This document shows, piece after piece, positions 569-9,999 of a stretch of DNA of 10,399 bases. Source of the stretch: Globomyces pollinis-pini (lineage: Eukaryota; Chytridiomycota; Chytridiomycetes; Rhizophydiales; Globomycetaceae). Location of the stretch: assembly GCA_025399215.1 (NCBI GenBank), contig MU621468.1, positions 4,753-15,151 of the forward strand, given 5' to 3'. Below the pieces are notes generated by a model. That model did not search any database. It saw only the letters and a list, made by a program, of their open reading frames with translations, and had not been told where the DNA came from. Position 1 is the first letter of the stretch. Each line of letters starts with the position of its first letter. The position numbers and the translations under genes are program-made.

Positions 569-3500
569 CTACAGAATTAACTCTCTGGTGTTCATCATGT
601 GCAATACATGAATTAAAATTGAGGTAAAGGTCTGGTATTTCATAAACCCAGATGTAAACTTGAGTCTATCCAATCGTCTATTCTTCTGTTCATGCAATAC
701 AGATATAACATCTAGGGTTAGAATAATCGTTACCTTTTAAATAGGAGTATTCTTTACTGTTGAATGTTGCACCGCAATTGACATGGTTTTTCCAATGAAA
801 ACCGTCTGACAACACCATTGTATTCAGTATACCAGTAGGTGCTCGGTTTAAGAAGTGTTCAGCTAAGTTGCAACCATTATCATAAATGATAACGTCAGGC
901 ATTGGATTAAAGCTAAACTAATAAGTTAAATGGATATTACCGACTGAGGAAAGTAGTATAAACATGTTGCGGTGCTTCTGCAGATTGCAAAATAACAAAA
1001 CCTATGCATTTGCGGTGATCGGCACACCAAAAAAGAAGTACACCAGATCCAAGATTACCTGGTGATTTAGACTGTTTGCAGCATGATAGATCTTTTTCAC
1101 TCTGGCTAAGGTGCAGTGTTTTCAATTTGTTTTGATACGGTCGGCCAGGAAAGAAGGACCCGGTTTGATTCAACTCATCTTTATCATTCAAAAAAATAAC
1201 CCGATCAGACTCTTCAACTGGAGAGATTGGATTCACATAACTAAATGTTAATAGTGTTTGAAGTTACTTTGGCAGGGGATTGTTAAAACAATTTTCAGCT
1301 TTATAAAGAATAAATTTGAGCAAATCTATGTAACAGGGAAGTCTTCCAGCTGTAGGATCAGCTTCAGTTGACAAAACATCATGATGATTGGAGTTGATTA
1401 GTTCAACTCCAAACAAAATAAGATCCACTAGAATGGGAGCTATCTTTCCAATGGCAGAAACTTTGCATGCATTGATGGTTAATGTGTCGCAAATGTCTTT
1501 AAGATATGGCCAGGTACTTGGTGGTGCCAACGATGAGCTCGGACTTACATCCTTATACATAAAATTGAATACTTTTAGTGATGGTGGAAGAACAAATATG
1601 CCACGAGCTCTTTCTATCTTGAAGTTAATTAGAAATTTGGTGACAGGGTTGTTAAAGTGACTGTCTAAACGTATTAATTCTCGATCCGTAATTCCTAACA
1701 TTAAATATAAAATGATACCATCGTCTTTGATATAGTGCTTCAAAAGTTGTCTCATTGTTTTGTTCATTCCAGGTAATAAATGTCTCTCTTTTCTTGTACT
1801 GAATCGCTTATTTAGAGCAACCTCTGTATCCCTCCATGGTTCTACTAAATTTTGCTGCAGTATTCTTTTCGTTTCCACAGATAATACTATCCCATCGACA
1901 CATACAACTCTAGGGTTTGTGCAACATTTGAAAGCGTATTCTGGATAGTCGATTAAACGTAGATACTCTGTTAAAACAAGACTAACGCTTCCTGAAAACT
2001 GCTTTAATATCTTTCTTGACCTAGCGGTCTTACTTGGATGTGTTCCAAGTAAGATCATCTCCATCTTGACCATCCAAAATGCATGAACAGGTGTCCCATT
2101 TGTATACTTTAATTCCATTATCTCCATTAGAAGTTCAATTGCAAAAAAATGCCGATCACCATAATTTATGATTCCATCATCACGTCCATCATAATGATAC
2201 TTTTGACCACAGACAGAGCAAGAAGACCATGCGGATTTAAATCGTCGAATAAAGTTAGACACAGTATATAGCTAAATGCATTATTTCTATTGGATTTTAC
2301 CTTTGAATCTTCTAATATATGAATCTTACATTCATGACCACAACATACAAGGGTCTCTGGTTGGAATAAGATTGATGATTTGGTCATTCTAGTGTTTATC
2401 CACCAATAAAATCCATTCTGTAGTCTCTTTGGTATCAAAACGCTTAAGTTTTCATCTAAATAAATATCATCTGTTAATTATACTTCCATAGTGTGACTTA
2501 CATGGATATCTGCGTTTCGAGTAAACATTGTAGTCAAAGGCAGGTACCTGAGAATAGTCGATAGGTTCATCTGCAACGTCATAAGTTAATCCAGAAAGTG
2601 GTGGAAGGGATTGAACATGTGTACATATAACACGCTTATTACAAACATAGCAGTAATATGAACGCTTCCGTTTTGAATTGATAGATAAGGAGACCAAAGT
2701 TAACTTGCAATCCAGAGTTAAAAAAAGCGAAATAGGACCGAAATTGGATTCACAATCTAATTCGGATCGGTCATACCAAGCATTCAAATCCATTGGAAAA
2801 GGTTCATTGATTAGAATTGAGGCAAATTTGATTGTCACTAGCTCTTTGAAATCTGCTCTAGACATAATGGCTCTCCAAGCACAATCAAAGTGAAGAATAG
2901 CAGAGATGACTGGAAGGATATGTTTACATGAAAATAAAGACTGCAATTAGTTTGTGAATAAATTACCTCGAATGTTTGAATATGATCAGTTTGACCCCAA
3001 CTTGTCTGATAGTACATTTTGAAGTTTTCAGGAGAGCAAATACTGCATATTCCAACTGGTTGTCGTACATTTGCATACGTAATATTCATAATGACAACGT
3101 AGTACAACTGATTTAGTTTCCTTTTGACAACACCATTTGACACATCATAGCAGTGAAGAATGTGAACCTGTCTATAACTGTACAGATCAGAAGGACAATA
3201 GGCATGTAAATCATACACTTTAAACGCTTCTAAGTTTTCATTATAGTACGGATCATTCATATTGACTTCAGATATAAATCCATCATCTTGTCCATTTACA
3301 TCGATAATTGTATCATCAATATCACTAACAGTAACACTATTTGTTGGTGGAACTGCATCATCGTTTCGGTTAATTGGATTTGGGTTGACAGAGCTCTGGT
3401 CAATGATACTAATATTGTTAAGAAGAATGTATACCTAGAGGGCAATTGGAGTGATTGAAAACGATTGTAAATCCTATCATCCGTCCTTCTTTGCCTTCTT

Positions 3501-3604
3501 TGGCGCAAAACACCAGTGGTTGTGTAATGATAAGACCCATTTCTTCTGGAAACCATTATCGTAGAAAAAAGTTTTGAACCCTCATGAATTAGGGTTACTT
3601 GCAT
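569..3604 (-). CDS. KDZ-family DDE transposase-like protein, eight exons, about 948 aa
   Basis: Exons (minus): 3435-3604, 2967-3408, 2502-2940, 2301-2470, 1268-2271, 941-1240, 734-912, 569-711, separated by introns of 22-31 nt that all restore frame. Features in order: a basic N-terminus rich in Arg; a Cys/His cluster C301-x2-C304-x5-C310-x-H312 resembling a SWIM finger; a CxxC at 425-428 followed by YDGRDDGIINYGD; VDG with candidate catalytic D533; YDNGCN with D853; and HEQ with E909 just before the C-terminus. The last motifs match the family pattern of KDZ transposases (RNase H fold, D-D-E) and HMGXB3-like relatives, which cut DNA during element mobility or are domesticated. The start at 3604 is the first Met in the open frame; Met17 at 3556 is an alternative. 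The family is confident. Whether it is an active transposon or a host gene is open; no terminal inverted repeats were found. Confidence 0.82.
2471..2501 (-). other. Intron 3 of the transposase-like gene, two equally framed alternatives
   Basis: Two GT-AG choices overlap here and both keep the protein in frame. One is 31 nt (2471-2501) with a GTAAGT donor. The other is 28 nt (2456-2483) with a GTATAA donor. They change only a few residues: the segment after RRYP reads YDIYLD with the first and CKSHYGN with the second. I used the 31-nt version for the protein length because its donor is stronger, although its acceptor lies very close to the possible branch site. Confidence 0.5.
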
Positions 3605-3885
3605 AGACTGGGACGTAGGACCAATTCAAATGACTGCATATAGATGGTTCCTATTTACCCATTACTATTACTATTTGAACAGCTTTCATAGCACTGAGTA
3701 TACAAACATGATGTAGTTACTGACATACATTCGTGAAACTAAAAATAAGAAAAAAAATATTACCGAACTTGCGAACTATTTTGTTTAAGAATGGCATAGT
3801 TCCATTAATCCTAATGAGGTCTCTTTCTCTGAAAAGTGGTTCTTTACAAACAATTCTATATTGCCAAGTATTTGAGTTCCATGAT

Positions 3886-3904
3886 TAGTTCGAATGTAAC
3901 ACTA
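3886..3904 (+). repeat. Direct repeat TAGTTYGAATGTAAYACTA, copy 1
   Basis: This 19-bp sequence differs from the copy at 4092-4110 at two positions only, both C here and T there. Both copies have the same orientation in the divergent intergenic region, 206 bp apart. This could be a regulatory motif or a diverged duplication. Confidence 0.5.
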
Positions 3905-4091
3905 TAAATAATTCGAAAAAAATAAATAAATAAAAACCACGTACGGAACTGGTGATGTGAAAGATGTGCATTGTAAGATCCAAATTTATAAAGCTGTAAC
4001 TTTGATCTATGATTCTGACATCATTCCACATGTGAATAAAAATTCAGTATTCATTCAATCTGGACTTCGAAAAAATTTTGCTGAGCAACTC

Positions 4092-4110
4092 TAGTTTGAA
4101 TGTAATACTA
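4092..4110 (+). repeat. Direct repeat TAGTTYGAATGTAAYACTA, copy 2
   Basis: This is the second copy of the 19-bp repeat, 17 of 19 positions identical to 3886-3904. It lies about 200 bp upstream of the sirtuin start codon. Confidence 0.5.
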
Positions 4111-4308
4111 AAGTGAGAGTATATTTAATACCAACAGTATTCGAATCGTTCATGTTCGGCAGATCAAATCTAATAATCATAGACGCCAATCCAAAGCATT
4201 GAAAATGATGTTTTAGTTATTGGTAACCATTGTTCCGTTTAAAAATAATACTGAGTGTAGTAGTAGTTGATAATCACTGTTTAGTTTAAAGATCTGAAGT
4301 TTTTTTTT

Positions 4309-5393
4309 ATGTCAAACCTCAAACAAATTGAATGTTTTACATTAGCAGAGTGGTTGAAAAATGACAAACTAGTTTTGCTTACAGGGGCTGGCATATCTGT
4401 TTCTGCTGGTCTTCAGGTATACTTTACATTTTAAATTATCAGCCGTTCCGTGTTAACAACAGATCTCTAAACAAAGGAAACCTTAGTGCCTTAGAATTCT
4501 ATTCAAATGGAGATCCCATGCGAGTATTTAACCATGTTGCAAAGATGGTAGAAGATGCAAGGGACGCCAAACCATCGAAGTTTCATTTATTTTTAAAAAC
4601 ATTTATCAAAGTTTCGTTGAAGTATTAATTCTAGTCAAAACAACTAATTAGAAACTATTCTATGAATATTGACTGCCTGGAAAACGAAGTTCGAACAAGA
4701 AGTCTTGATGGGTTTTATACAGATCTTTCATCTCTGACAATACGCTTGCATGGTGAAGTTTTAAAAGCGATTTGTTTCCGTTGCTCTAAAGTATATGAAT
4801 TGACGGATACTATTTTAAAATCTTGGAAATCGTCCGATTCCTCTGGTCTGATCAACTGTGAAGATAGTCAGTGTTTATGTAGACCAAGAGATTCTAAACT
4901 GCGTCAGCTGAAAGTCAATCCAGCAAAGCTTCGACCACATATTGTTCTCTATGATGAAGAATTACCAATCAATGCCCAAGAAAGGTATGACCAAAGTTTA
5001 ACATATAGAATCCAAGAGTGTTTATTAAAGGATTCGTTATTAAAACCAGACATTTTGCTAATTGTAGGTACGTCCTTATCTACAGATGTGAACGGCCAAC
5101 AAATGATCATTTCACATTTTAAAAAAAACAACAGCTCGATTAAAGTAGTTCATATCAATATAAACAAACCAAATAGTTGCCAGCAAGGATACTATTGTTT
5201 AGGTGAAGCGGATCAAATTGCAACGACGATCACCAAAATTTACAACCCAAATCTCAGACTGACACCACCATACATAAGAAAGACCAAAGTAATAACAAGA
5301 CGTACATCGAAGAGTTTAATAAATGCTGATAACCATTATACATTTTTTGTCTTTATGGAGATTGGTTTTGTAGAAATTGATTTTACGAAGTAG
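4309..5393 (+). CDS. Sirtuin, Hst3/Hst4-like NAD-dependent deacylase, three exons, 344 aa
   Basis: Exons 4309-4416, 4443-4610 and 4635-5393 are joined by in-frame introns of 26 and 24 nt. The protein shows the sirtuin core: TGAGISVSAG at 25-34 (NAD-binding loop), FR at 38-39, NID at 103-105, LHG with catalytic His131, a zinc site with C139-x2-C142 and cysteines at 167, 172 and 174, LRPHIVLYDE at 191-200, and GTSL at 237-240. The LRPxIVLY and KPSKFHLFL patterns resemble yeast Hst3/Hst4, which remove acetyl from histone H3 K56, more than SIRT1-3. Oddities: the usual GIPDFR reads GLQPFR, QNID reads MNID, and YGE reads YDE. A nuclear histone deacylase role is inferred from the family; the changed NAD-pocket residues leave activity uncertain. 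Nine T precede the ATG. The gene diverges from the transposase-like gene and converges with the PIAS-like gene. Confidence 0.85.
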
Positions 5394-5897
5394 ATACCAT
5401 TTCGGCTTTATTGAGTCAACCAATATATAATTATACACTGAAATTTGTACCGCTATAATGCTCGAATCTTAATGTATCAACTTGATGCTTTATTTTTGGA
5501 AAAGAAGAAGTAGTAGTTTCGGAACGTAATGTATACTGTTAGTTGAATTGGATATTCGGTCTTCCGGCTAAAGAATTAATGCATAGTTATTAAACAAAGT
5601 CTTCGGATCGTTTTGATATTTACCTTTAGTTCAAGATATTACTAATTTTTTGGTAAGATTAATGTTAACATGATTAATATTTCGTTCAAAATCCCTAAAA
5701 AAACAACCAAAGCTTATATTTTAGAGAATTTAAAATAACATCTAAGTCTATAGTAAGTTTTGTTCTACGATGTTTCGTTCCAGAGATTTTTGTGAAGTTG
5801 TGCAAAAACCGCGTAACTTGTCCATTCAGATTTAAATGGTAAAAAACAAAAAATAAGGATTGTTATAGAAATGAAATTTATTTCAGATGCAGTATAT
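5394..5897. other. Intergenic region between convergent genes
   Basis: About 500 bp of AT-rich sequence separates the sirtuin stop from the stop of the minus-strand PIAS-like gene. I see no convincing exon, tRNA or repeat. No canonical AATAAA is evident soon after the sirtuin stop; AATATA near 5422 is a weaker candidate. Confidence 0.5.
5877..5882 (-). terminator. Probable AATAAA polyadenylation signal of the PIAS-like gene
   Basis: AATAAA on the minus strand begins 15 nt after the TAG stop at 5898-5900. Like the transposase-like gene, this predicts a very short 3' UTR. Motif evidence only. Confidence 0.5.
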
Positions 5898-7513
5898 CTA
5901 AATTAAATTAGAATAGCTTCGCGGATAAATGGGATTTCCGGTGACAGGATCCAATGGAATTGGCACACTACTGCCAGGATAATACATATTTCGTCTGTAC
6001 GGATCATAGTATGCACCTTCGGAATTGAGTTTGTATCTCCATACATGTTCTAGCCTATCATGACGAGAGAGTTTCTTAATTTCTACTAATTAGAAAAAAA
6101 AGTACCTAATTATTAGAAATAAATTAGCTACTTCGTTTGTTTCTTGCTCTCCATTTGATCTTTTCTATTTCCGTACGTGGGACGTCATAAAACTGAGGTT
6201 TAGAATTAGAGTTAATCGTTTGCATTGGTGTCAAGTCTGGGATAGGGTTTGAAATCACAGACGAATAGGCCAACTTCATAGCTTTTGAAGGATTGAATTC
6301 ATCAAAATCCTCGTTCAGTTTGTCATCTTTGACTTTCAACAGATGCAGTTCCAACCGCCCATTCAAACTCCATATCCCATTCACTTGCCGAAGATTCACC
6401 TCCTTAGCTCTTGGATCGTTTGAATACCACCCACGTTGCTTGATAATCTTTCGGCTAGACTGGATTTGAAAATTACGAAGAATATCATCATATTCGCAAA
6501 AATTCACAGTTGACCCGTAACGTTCGAATACTCTTGCAACATCCTGTTCAGAGAGGAGTTCGATGGGATGAATGTCTTAAATGTTAAACATATGCTGTTA
6601 CTTAAATGGCTCCAATCTTCAAAAGGATTGAGCTTTGTTCCATCCTTCACAGTAGAATCACCAGCAATGATTAGTGAATGAGTATTGGGATTGGTTCCCA
6701 GATTAAATTTGTTTGGGGTTGAGTCCTCATCTACTACAAGTCTGACCATTCTAATAGTTGCAATGAGACCCTAAATATAAATCAGCTAACCCTGATTGAC
6801 ATACAGTTTCGTACCTACCATCGTTGAAGACAAATGAGATGGTAGAAGTACTTTGAAGTATATCCTTATCTATAACAGTTCCCATATTGGACAGAGGAAC
6901 GTCTATTCCATTGATATGCAACGTCCCATTATTCGGGTACGAGTATTCATTATAAGTATTAAGCGGACAATCTATTTGGCACGAAAGGAACAGAATTGAG
7001 AATCCGTTATGATAAAGGTTTTGAACCAAATCCATGTTCAGAATAAACGTATCGTCAAATTGATTGATAGAATCTTTACTCGGTTGCAACACTAAAGGTA
7101 TGAGTAAACAAGATTAATACCCGAATGTACTTGATAGATAGTGACTTGAGTGAATTCACCACCAATTAGCCTGAATCGAACGGATTCGAACAAGGTGTTA
7201 ATTGCAATTTTCAATTTGGGCGGGAACGAAGAGTCGGTGAGTAACATGGATTCCATCATTGGTACAACTCTTCGTTTACTCCTTTTTTTGTTTGTAGATA
7301 AATCAAATCCAAGTTTCGAGGCAATGTATAGAATATCCCTAGTGTCAATGCGTTAAGTGTACCGTGCATTCATTCGTGAGAGCGTCTCTTTCAATAATCT
7401 AGCGTCCAAATAGTCAAGGAAAGAAGGTAGAGAGTCGGACTATGAAGCAATTAAATTTGAAAACTAACCTTCGAATAATAATCGATGGATATTCCTCCTT
7501 TAGTTTTGTTCAT
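5898..7513 (-). CDS. PIAS/Siz-like SAP-PINIT protein lacking an SP-RING, seven exons, about 475 aa
   Basis: Exons (minus): 7469-7513, 7363-7439, 7121-7338, 6805-7091, 6602-6770, 6132-6575, 5898-6085; introns are 29, 24, 29, 34, 26 and 46 nt. Residues about 36-90 fit a SAP domain and its following helix as in PIAS proteins (ARDILYIASKLG, then SFPPKLKIAINTLF). Residues about 104-222 fit a PINIT domain: a YQVHSVLQPS segment like FYDVLxxLIKPT, FDDTFILNMDLVQNL, then SCQIDC, YPNN, HINGIDVPL and a final RMVRLV. In PIAS/Siz SUMO E3 ligases a Cys/His-rich SP-RING follows and recruits the E2; here residues 223-475 contain almost no cysteine and no such domain. The C-terminus is unrecognised, ending in a Tyr/Pro-rich tail (YYDPYRRNMYYP). 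The start ATG at 7513 is the first in frame after a stop. Function is inferred as DNA or SUMO-pathway binding without ligase activity. The weakest splice is 6771-6804. Confidence 0.7.
6086..6131 (-). other. Composite intron made of abutting 26-nt and 20-nt intron-like units
   Basis: Frame is restored only by removing all 46 nt. The interval is two complete GT-AG units with no base between them: 6106-6131 (GTAGCT donor, AATTAG acceptor) and 6086-6105 (GTACTT donor, AATTAG acceptor). Splicing out only the first unit would regenerate a donor at the junction and, if left so, insert seven codons ending in TAG. Confidence 0.55.
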
Positions 7514-7779
7514 ACCTTTGGAAGTCAAAAATAGTTTGACAGCTTATTCAATAATGTCATGCGCCACAGACTGCAGTGAGATTGCGATAGGAATAACCCA
7601 AGAGTACAGTAGATAATACTTTGCCAAGGAAAAAATCTTATAATCATCGAACTTCCCTTAACGATCCAGTGCTAAAAAATAAAGAAAGAATTCATTATTC
7701 TTGTAGACCATTATGTAGCACCAGCCACCTTATTGCCACACAATGTATTTTTTTTTTGTAGATCAAAACAATATACATT
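7514..7779. promoter_or_regulatory. Divergent spacer between PIAS-like and chromodomain genes
   Basis: This 266-bp region lies between the start codons of two divergent genes and should contain both promoters. No clear TATA box or upstream exon is visible. At its right end, a run of ten T (7748-7757) followed by GTAG gives a strong splice-acceptor-like signal 18 nt before the ATG at 7780. Confidence 0.4.
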
Positions 7780-9999
7780 ATGGTGTTTGACATTGCAAAT
7801 CCAATGGCTGCTCAACCATGGGTTGAAGAGAATGATGCTACCACTTCTAATGGCCTGGAAAATTTATCATTTGGATTTGATCAACGATGGGATGATGATG
7901 AAGACGAACCGATTGATCAATATGAGAATAAAGAAGGTATTTGGTCCACTAATACTAATAATTAGACTCATTTAGTCATCCTATGCCTCAATATATTAAA
8001 GATCTACACCAAAAATTGCCAAAACGGTTTTATGCCAAAGATAAATCAAAGCAACCACAATTTGCCGGAAACAGGAGACAAACTCCTTACTCATCTGATG
8101 AAGCTGGCGCTTGTAAGAGACATTACCAAAGGATTCTTATTCGGTTATTTCACATGTTTGATTGGATTTGCAGAGTTCATCCAGAGTTTGGTTATATTCT
8201 TATTGGTATATTTTCGTTTAAATAATTGTAGTTGATAAACCTCATCATATCAACTCGACATTTGGAACAAAAGAAAGTTATGCTAAAAATTCCCATGTTG
8301 TAGATTTACAAAAGCTACTTCAAAATGACAGAAAAGATAGATCATCATTACATGATCAGCGAACAAAATTGCTTACTGCAAATTTACCTGAAAGCTACTC
8401 TGCTCGGTTTCATGGACTAGTATTACTTCCCACCATTGGAAATTGTATCAATTTAATCTCCAAACTCAATAGAAAAGTTCTACGGGCTGTCTCAGTGAGG
8501 TGGAGGGAATTTTATTCTGGTGAAATTCCAGCGGATCCTAACCGAAAGTCATGTGATGAATTAATAGCTGAAGTTTTGAAAAAGAAAGCGATTTCCACAA
8601 AGTGTCTTTGGGACTCGCTTATTGGAATAAGCAAACAAGTAATATTGGAATACTGCTCATATTATAGAATTCTGCAGTTGGTGTAAAAGAAGTTGTTCAA
8701 CTGATGCAAGTGCTAGATCTACGATTGGCGTCTGAATACGAAGACTCAGGCGCAGATTGTCATCAATTACCTATTATTGGTCTTGATGGTGAGACCACTT
8801 GTGATATGAAAGGTTTGTAAATAGCATTTAATAGTTCAGAGTCTTACCTAACTTCAAGTGTTGCAGAACTTACTCTTTCTCATTCTAATTCTGTCTCTGC
8901 TGATACTATTACTAAAGAAGCTGTCAATGTCAACACAACTGCAACTCTACCAGGACTTACTACTGCTAACTTTACATTGAAAACTGCTAATCGTACTCCT
9001 CAAAGTACTTTCAATTCAAACCCAAGTGCAACTCTTCCTGATCTTACTACTTCTGAGCTTCTTATTACTCAAGGCTCCTTGAATTTAAACCCAACTGCCA
9101 CTGGTCCAGAACTTACTAATTCTAATTCTTCCTTCCAATCTTCTGATGCTATTACTCAAATAGCAAACTCAAATGCACCTGTACCATTACTTACTAGTGC
9201 GAACATTAGTTTGGATTTTGATGCTCTTACTCCTGAAGATTCTCTCAATGCAAACCCAACTGAGACTGAACCAAAAAGTAATACTGCCGACTCTATTTTC
9301 GGCTCTGATCATCTTTTTTCTCAAGGTTCTCTCGATGCAATCCCAACTACAACTCTGTCAGATCATACTAATGCTCAGTCTAACTTGCACTCTGATGATT
9401 TTCCTCAAATACCTATCAATTCAAACCCAACTACAACTAATCAGACCGATCTTATTACTTGTATCTCTGCAAATTTTGTTGAAGGAATTCCAATATCTAC
9501 ACCACCAAGCCATGAGGCATATCCTTTAATCAGAAAACTCCTTCACACCGGTTCACAAATCAATCTGCTCCAGTCCAGTCTGCCTAGGATACCTCAAGAG
9601 AGCGAACCAAGTCAATATTTAAACATTTTCTAACATATAGGAATCATCAACAAACTACCCAGATCGCTCAGAAAAAGAAGAGCGAAGTCTACAACAGCAA
9701 CTAACAAAAACTTTCATGAAACTAAACAAGTAACAGAAGCGAGGTACGAAGTTGAATCTATCTTGAACGAACATATCAAAGATGGCAAAACCTTTTATAA
9801 AGTGAAATGGTCCGAGGGCAGTGTTACTGTCGAACCAGCAGAAAACATCCAAGCTGATTGCCCAATGCTGGTCAAAGAATTTAATGAAAGATTGGAGTTC
9901 GATAAAGATCATTCCGACAAACGGATGATGATACAAATGAGAAGGAATGGATCGCACAGATCTAAGCGTAGAAGAAATGCTATGTTAATTAATAAATAA
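7780..9999 (+). CDS. Unrecognised protein with N-x-N-P repeats and C-terminal chromodomain, six exons, about 692 aa
   Basis: Exons 7780-7936, 7966-8205, 8232-8638, 8668-8812, 8840-9610 and 9641-9999; introns are 29, 26, 29, 27 and 30 nt, the last with an unusual GTCAAT donor. Residues 1-316 are unrecognised: an acidic stretch (WDDDEDEPIDQ, about 37-47), then a basic and helical region. Residues 346-535 are seven degenerate repeats of 23-29 aa, rich in Asn, Thr and Ser. A basic segment (LRKRRAK) precedes a chromodomain at about 608-657 (RYEVESIL, FYKVKW, VEPAENI). Chromodomains commonly bind methylated lysine through three aromatic residues; here Y609 and W630 are present, but the loop carrying the third is shortened and the usual TWEP reads TVEP. 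A chromatin-associated role is inferred; methyl-lysine binding is doubtful. An Arg/Lys-rich tail follows. The gene lies divergent to the PIAS-like gene. Confidence 0.72.
8926..9495 (+). repeat. Seven degenerate coding tandem repeats (N-x-N-P type)
   Basis: Within exon 5 of the chromodomain gene, seven units of 29, 23, 28, 27, 29, 28 and 26 residues follow each other without gaps. Each begins with a variant of N-x-N-P-T-x-T and most end in a serine- or leucine-containing turn such as TQGSL. DNA copies share AATTCAAACCCAA-like starts. Divergence is high, so this is an old expansion, probably encoding a disordered linker. Confidence 0.7.
9608..9663 (+). other. Junction of the repeat exon and the chromodomain exon
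   Basis: The intron here is placed at 9611-9640. Without splicing, the repeat exon would end at a TAA at 9631-9633, giving a protein without the chromodomain. The acceptor (CTAACATATAG) is strong, while the donor (GTCAAT) is the least typical in the window, so retention or an alternative end is possible. Confidence 0.5.

Follow-up and report, generated by a model that had tools for sequence, protein, structure and literature searches.

Sequence evidence for GT-AG introns of about 28 nt in the nuclear genome of the chytrid Globomyces pollinis-pini

The genes of the chytrid fungus Globomyces pollinis-pini very probably contain ordinary U2-type GT-AG introns whose length, judging from sequence, would have decreased to about 28 nt throughout much of the nuclear genome. 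The case was developed from a stretch of 10,399 bases of contig MU621468.1 (the window; about 35% GC), part of a genome of 18.55 Mb in 459 contigs. In six-frame reading the coding blocks of the window are interrupted by frame shifts or stops. Excision of segments with GT-AG ends gave four gene models with 7 + 2 + 6 + 4 = 19 introns, 18 of them 22-34 nt long and the remaining one a composite of 46 nt. A 20th intron of 24 nt (4995-5018), in frame and without a stop, was revealed by homologs only. An earlier note on this DNA had described tiny GT-AG introns in four genes, and these 20 segments bear it out; three that it had singled out, 712-733 (22 nt, minus strand), 4417-4442 (26 nt) and 4611-4634 (24 nt), have exact GT..AG ends on the coding strand and join the reading frames as claimed.

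Homologs support eight of the 20 window introns, five in gene 1 and three in gene 2 (Table 1). Pfam domains were recognised in three window proteins: CxC4 in gene 1 (4.1e-10), SIR2 in gene 2 and Chromo on the last exon of gene 4. With the spliced SIR2 protein as query, 16 proteins were returned out of 8,000 scored candidates. The top four were from Globomyces, the best being a deposited G. pollinis-pini protein (P0001), and the remaining named organisms were fungi. The segment 4995-5018 was taken as the third SIR2 intron because P0002, P0004 and P0005 lack the residues encoded there. The sole named relative of gene 1 in the protein search was Globomyces sp. JEL0801.

The deposited protein P0001, which comes from the contig of the window, matches the SIR2 gene letter for letter except for a skipped stretch and its last residues, which are read in another frame and end early. 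About 100 nt (4535-4634) are skipped where the homologs want a 24-nt intron, with loss of conserved residues. Conserved residues are also lost at the early end, where P0001 departs from the gene after about 4993.

Introns of the same kind were found in other genes of the genome. Altogether 34 tiny introns in eight genes have GT-AG ends at exon borders of conserved protein, with a mean length of 27.8 nt (standard deviation 2.3, range 22-32); eight of the 34 lengths are divisible by three. This homology-checked set comprises introns from window gene 1 and SIR2 (8), glucose-6-phosphate isomerase (5), isocitrate lyase (5), an ABC-F protein (6), alpha-tubulin (1), Prp8 (6) and U2AF65 (3). The genes outside the window were chosen for showing introns and were compared with solved structures; where the gene-finder had slipped by a few bases, the GT-AG option that fitted the homolog was taken (28 for 22, 28 for 25 and 31 for 25 nt). 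When six introns of 27-32 nt were removed from Prp8, its residues 1-1105 aligned with residues 928-2032 of 6qw6 and 952-2056 of 3jcr (hPrp8). This match has no net gap (1,105 vs 1,105 residues), and the printed alignment ends before the last two junctions. Alpha-tubulin has one intron of 27 nt, and its junction-spanning residues 1-43 are identical to those of a solved tubulin alpha-1C chain; the animal look of this gene was a first impression that was judged misleading. All five tiny introns of glucose-6-phosphate isomerase were identified against a solved structure. Isocitrate lyase (minus strand from 8258 of its locus) carries, besides its five tiny introns, one of 106 nt. In the ABC-F gene six tiny introns fall within the aligned part, and the gene-finder placed eight. 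The ABC-F protein (plus strand, just before 3303 of its locus) reads DEVTN, and the aligned ABCF1 chain 5zxd reads DEPTN. U2AF65 has introns of 30, 26 and 25 nt and one of 126 nt; these are covered by the solved structure except the 25-nt one, which is supported by adjoining profile matches. Of the 33 better-scoring gene models 2 were intron-free, and one tubulin match is contained in a stop-free open frame of 426 amino acids.

Of the 34 introns, 21 have GTAA and 10 have GTAT donors, with 2.7 bits at positions +3 to +6, and 27 have TAG acceptors. In 23 of them, vs 8.5 expected from shuffles, a loose TRAY motif precedes the last base by 4-11 nt; YTRAY is present in 18, and the median distance between its A and the donor is 18 nt. 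The spliceosome survey covered the U1, U2 and U6 small nuclear RNAs (snRNAs), Prp8 and U2AF65. Encoded in the genome were a U2 snRNA (135 bits) with a GTAGTA core, which we take to be the branch-pairing element, together with a highly conserved Prp8 and U2AF65. The likely and simplest mechanism is ordinary splicing: the spliceosome would excise introns of about 28 nt from RNA, probably by intron definition. The putative branch site would be the A of TRAY, at a distance of about 18 nt from the donor and, in most cases, 4-11 nt ahead of the intron's last base.

Tests that require no homologs were made on a sample of 200 kb out of 18.5 Mb, one 10-kb piece from each of 20 contigs (C1-C20). Coding-like flanks were present at 104 of 498 frame junctions. 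When 1.5 nats were tolerated, 83 of these 104 junctions had an available GT-AG gap of 20-36 nt, vs 8-32 for each of 17 dinucleotide pairs used as controls; with 0.75 nats the numbers were 39 vs 2-15. Ranked by number of junctions, GT-AG came first among the dinucleotide pairs (88 of 104), and the best GT-AG choice measured 24-32 nt at 63 of 102 junctions, spread over 16 of the 20 pieces. Run with a flat prior on length, a full gene-finder placed 331 GT-AG gaps, of which 126 were 24-32 nt long, vs 13, 6 and 8 for three decoy pairs. These decoys had the same composition, and the donor and acceptor weights, for which 72 candidates (20-36 nt) of this sample had served as training set, were also applied to them. 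Above 36 nt there was no excess (183 GT-AG gaps vs 202-227 for the three decoys at equal setting). With a weak penalty the gene-finder fused genes, and the median, set by the resulting bridging gaps, was 63 nt; stricter penalties still led to 63 or 50 because bridging gaps persist. The decoy comparison, not the median, is the fair reading of the gene-finder lengths. Across the 200 kb and the single loci, a narrow length peak under about 35 nt was observed in unrelated genes. On the window itself, a frame model trained on the 200 kb from other contigs placed 14 GT-AG gaps of 22-34 nt, vs 4-5 for five decoy pairs. Depending on which of three penalties was set, it recovered exactly 16, 11 or 12 of the 20 introns and made 9, 7 or 6 additional calls. 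Homology, decoy controls and recurrence in 16 of 20 genome pieces together support the view of the earlier note that the window carries ultra-short, predicted spliceosomal introns.

Several observations weigh against this interpretation. The other 12 of the 20 window introns, including all six of gene 3, are based on frame and GT-AG ends alone. Gaps of 24-32 nt were absent from the choices of the junction test in four of the 20 genome pieces; at zero tolerance GT-AG was offered at only 1 of the 104 junctions, where the test has no discriminating power; and when the dinucleotide pairs were ranked by fraction, TA..TT was first and GT-AG second. Longer introns occur, such as the 106-nt and 126-nt ones in isocitrate lyase and U2AF65, so the practical lack of longer introns reported for Paramecium or nucleomorphs does not extend to Globomyces. 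The strict branch motif WCTRAY is present in only 5 of the 34 homology-checked introns. The U2AF profile matches are all below the curated cut-off, and weak matches were also found in 2 of 14 control genomes. A family search of the genome found neither U1 nor U6 snRNA, and U6 was also missed by a core pattern with three mismatches; the failure of the family search is no evidence of absence because its controls matched in no genome. Both RNAs may be absent from the assembly or missed by the filter.

The rival explanations differ in what they make of the same segments. The earlier note had suggested that the window might come from dicyemids, and in this account the introns would be the same, with the DNA belonging to a dicyemid or to a dicyemid contaminant in the fungal assembly. 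The resemblance lies in intron size: in the extracts of the literature on which this and the following comparisons draw, dicyemid introns have a mean of 26.2 nt (PMC2222250) or a median of 27 nt (PMC6543705), in agreement with the sizes seen here. However, the four best SIR2 matches come from Globomyces, a chytrid of the Rhizophydiales, the other named ones come from fungi, and gene 1 has its only named relative in Globomyces; the decisive point is that the contig of the window is the one that carries the deposited G. pollinis-pini protein P0001. The suggested dicyemid origin is therefore wrong, and we give this account practically no weight. In the extract of PMC2483917, moreover, the donors of dicyemid introns are described as very weak (0.5 bits) and a branch signature as missing, whereas the introns studied here have 2.7 bits at the donor, by a measure that may differ in method, and a loose branch-like signal.

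Segments that happen to resemble introns could also result from indels in sequencing or assembly, or from the decay of pseudogenes. This reading draws some support from the window, where genes 1 and 4 may be related to mobile elements and gene 3 has no relatives, but it is very improbable in the face of the 34 homology-checked cases: segments with GT and AG ends are also present in housekeeping genes such as Prp8 and alpha-tubulin, their excision restores alignments with no net gap, and the decoy pairs have no length peak. Elements that are eliminated from DNA or bypassed in translation can be similar in size to these segments. It is on this likeness that a further explanation depends, in which the segments would be lost at the DNA level, like the eliminated sequences of ciliates, or bypassed in translation, as in mitochondria, and not spliced. 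The eliminated sequences of ciliates have TA ends; the segments in Globomyces end in GT..AG, have branch-like motifs near the acceptor and occur in a genome that encodes spliceosome parts, and we consider such a fate highly unlikely for them.

The coordinates of the four gene models and their introns are collected in Table 1. The predicted 475-residue protein of gene 3 gave no Pfam domain in a Pfam scan and no homolog in the protein search. Its composite intron consists of back-to-back GT..AG units of 26 and 20 nt that share similar TTTCTAAT...TTAG ends, and is possibly a single 46-nt intron with a duplicated acceptor. Unless the junction near 8.8 kb is an intron, gene 4 may have to be divided into two genes. 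A repeat search of the interval between genes 1 and 2 returned one weak inverted pair.

Table 1. Gene models and introns of the window (positions are those of the window; P numbers are homologous proteins)
Feature	Positions	Strand	Remarks
Gene 1, CxC4 cysteine-cluster protein, KDZ transposase-associated kind	569..3556	-	932 amino acids; 7 introns, in model order 26, 26, 31, 29, 27, 28 and 22 nt; stop checked, start codon chosen; homologs P0017-P0019
Intron, 22 nt	712..733	-	model; junction spanned by homolog P0019 alone
Intron, 28 nt	913..940	-	model; junction spanned by P0018, P0019
Intron, 27 nt	1241..1267	-	model; junction spanned by P0017, P0018
Intron, 29 nt	2272..2300	-	model; junction spanned by P0017
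Intron, 31 nt	2471..2501	-	model; junction spanned by P0017, P0018
Intron, 26 nt	2941..2966	-	frame and GT-AG; recovered by frame model; without homolog support
Intron, 26 nt	3409..3434	-	frame and GT-AG; recovered by frame model; without homolog support
Gene 2, SIR2 family (sirtuin) protein	4309..5393	+	3 introns; Pfam SIR2 6.8e-16; HST2 chain 9.6e-9; Globomyces homologs
Intron, 26 nt	4417..4442	+	identical junction in deposited P0001; P0003, P0004 agree
Intron, 24 nt	4611..4634	+	flanking residues retained in P0003, P0004; P0001 skips more
Intron, 24 nt, in frame without stop	4995..5018	+	encoded residues lacking in P0002, P0004, P0005
Gene 3, family without match	5898..7513	-	475 amino acids; 6 introns, in model order 29, 24, 29, 34, 26 and 46 nt; stop checked, start codon chosen
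Composite intron, 46 nt (GT..AG of 26, then directly GT..AG of 20)	6086..6131	-	frame and GT-AG; recovered at 2 of 3 frame-model settings
Intron, 26 nt	6576..6601	-	frame and GT-AG; recovered at 2 of 3 frame-model settings
Intron, 34 nt	6771..6804	-	frame and GT-AG; recovered at 1 of 3 frame-model settings
Intron, 29 nt	7092..7120	-	frame and GT-AG; recovered at 1 of 3 frame-model settings
Intron, 24 nt	7339..7362	-	in-frame stop removed; recovered at 1 of 3 frame-model settings
Intron, 29 nt	7440..7468	-	frame and GT-AG; missed by frame model
Gene 4, chromodomain at end	7780..9999	+	at least 4 introns; modelled introns 29, 26, 29 and 30 nt; Chromo 6.3e-8 on last exon
Intron, 29 nt	7937..7965	+	model; recovered by frame model
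Intron, 26 nt	8206..8231	+	model; recovered by frame model
Intron, 29 nt	8639..8667	+	model; recovered by frame model
Candidate junction, in-frame stop to remove or gene end	8789..8866	+	several GT-AG choices, none supported: 8789-8824 (36), 8817-8834 (18), 8813-8866 (54); frame model takes the 18-nt one
Intron, 30 nt	9611..9640	+	in-frame stop removed; recovered by frame model

Introns of this size or smaller have been described in a few other lineages. Dicyemids have introns of about 26-27 nt in many genes and, as in Globomyces, a number of longer introns (D. japonicum has a mean of 38.2 bp; PMC2222250, PMC6543705, PMC6736024). They are animal parasites with weak donors and, in the extract of PMC2483917, no branch signature, whereas Globomyces, a fungus, has GTA donors and a loose TRAY motif. 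Paramecium and other ciliates have introns of about 25 bp (PMC5014332). The extract of PMC2483917 reports no branch signature for Paramecium or for a nucleomorph, and does report one for two intron-poor species with short introns. The introns of mikrocytids (16-17 nt) and of chlorarachniophyte nucleomorphs (18-21 nt) share the narrow range of sizes near the lower limit; they are shorter and belong to reduced genomes, and mikrocytid spliceosomes are strongly reduced (PMC10245619), whereas Globomyces has a highly conserved Prp8 and has kept U2AF65. Among fungi, the short example given is Cryptococcus neoformans, with a mean of 63 bp, and the class of about 28 nt in Globomyces is far shorter; for the two Chytridiomycota in the survey table the mean intron density is 3.93 per kb (PMC8476143). 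No report of ultra-short introns in chytrids was found among the matches listed in the open-licence PubMed Central literature. In Globomyces, it seems, numerous introns of ultra-short length go together with a weak branch signature.

We lean slightly towards the broader view that in Globomyces, a culturable chytrid, the majority of nuclear introns have been reduced to about 28 nt, and that introns have stayed numerous and the core of the spliceosome conserved. Leaving microsporidia aside, Globomyces would be the first fungus known to us with a genome of this kind. Isolates of Globomyces pollinis have been obtained from pollen in water and, in one case, from the green alga Pediastrum (PMC11210171); because of that one isolate a free-living life is not established, and we hold the broader view a little less firmly than we otherwise would. 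The deposited SIR2 protein is a warning that standard gene models can err here, and for the protein sets and intron statistics of Globomyces and its chytrid relatives the minimum intron length may have to be set near 15-20 nt. With these genes, a fungus joins the few lineages with introns near the size limit of the spliceosome. If the broader view is correct, ultra-short introns would need neither obligate parasitism nor a stripped spliceosome, and a cultured fungus would be a test bed for the minimal intron.

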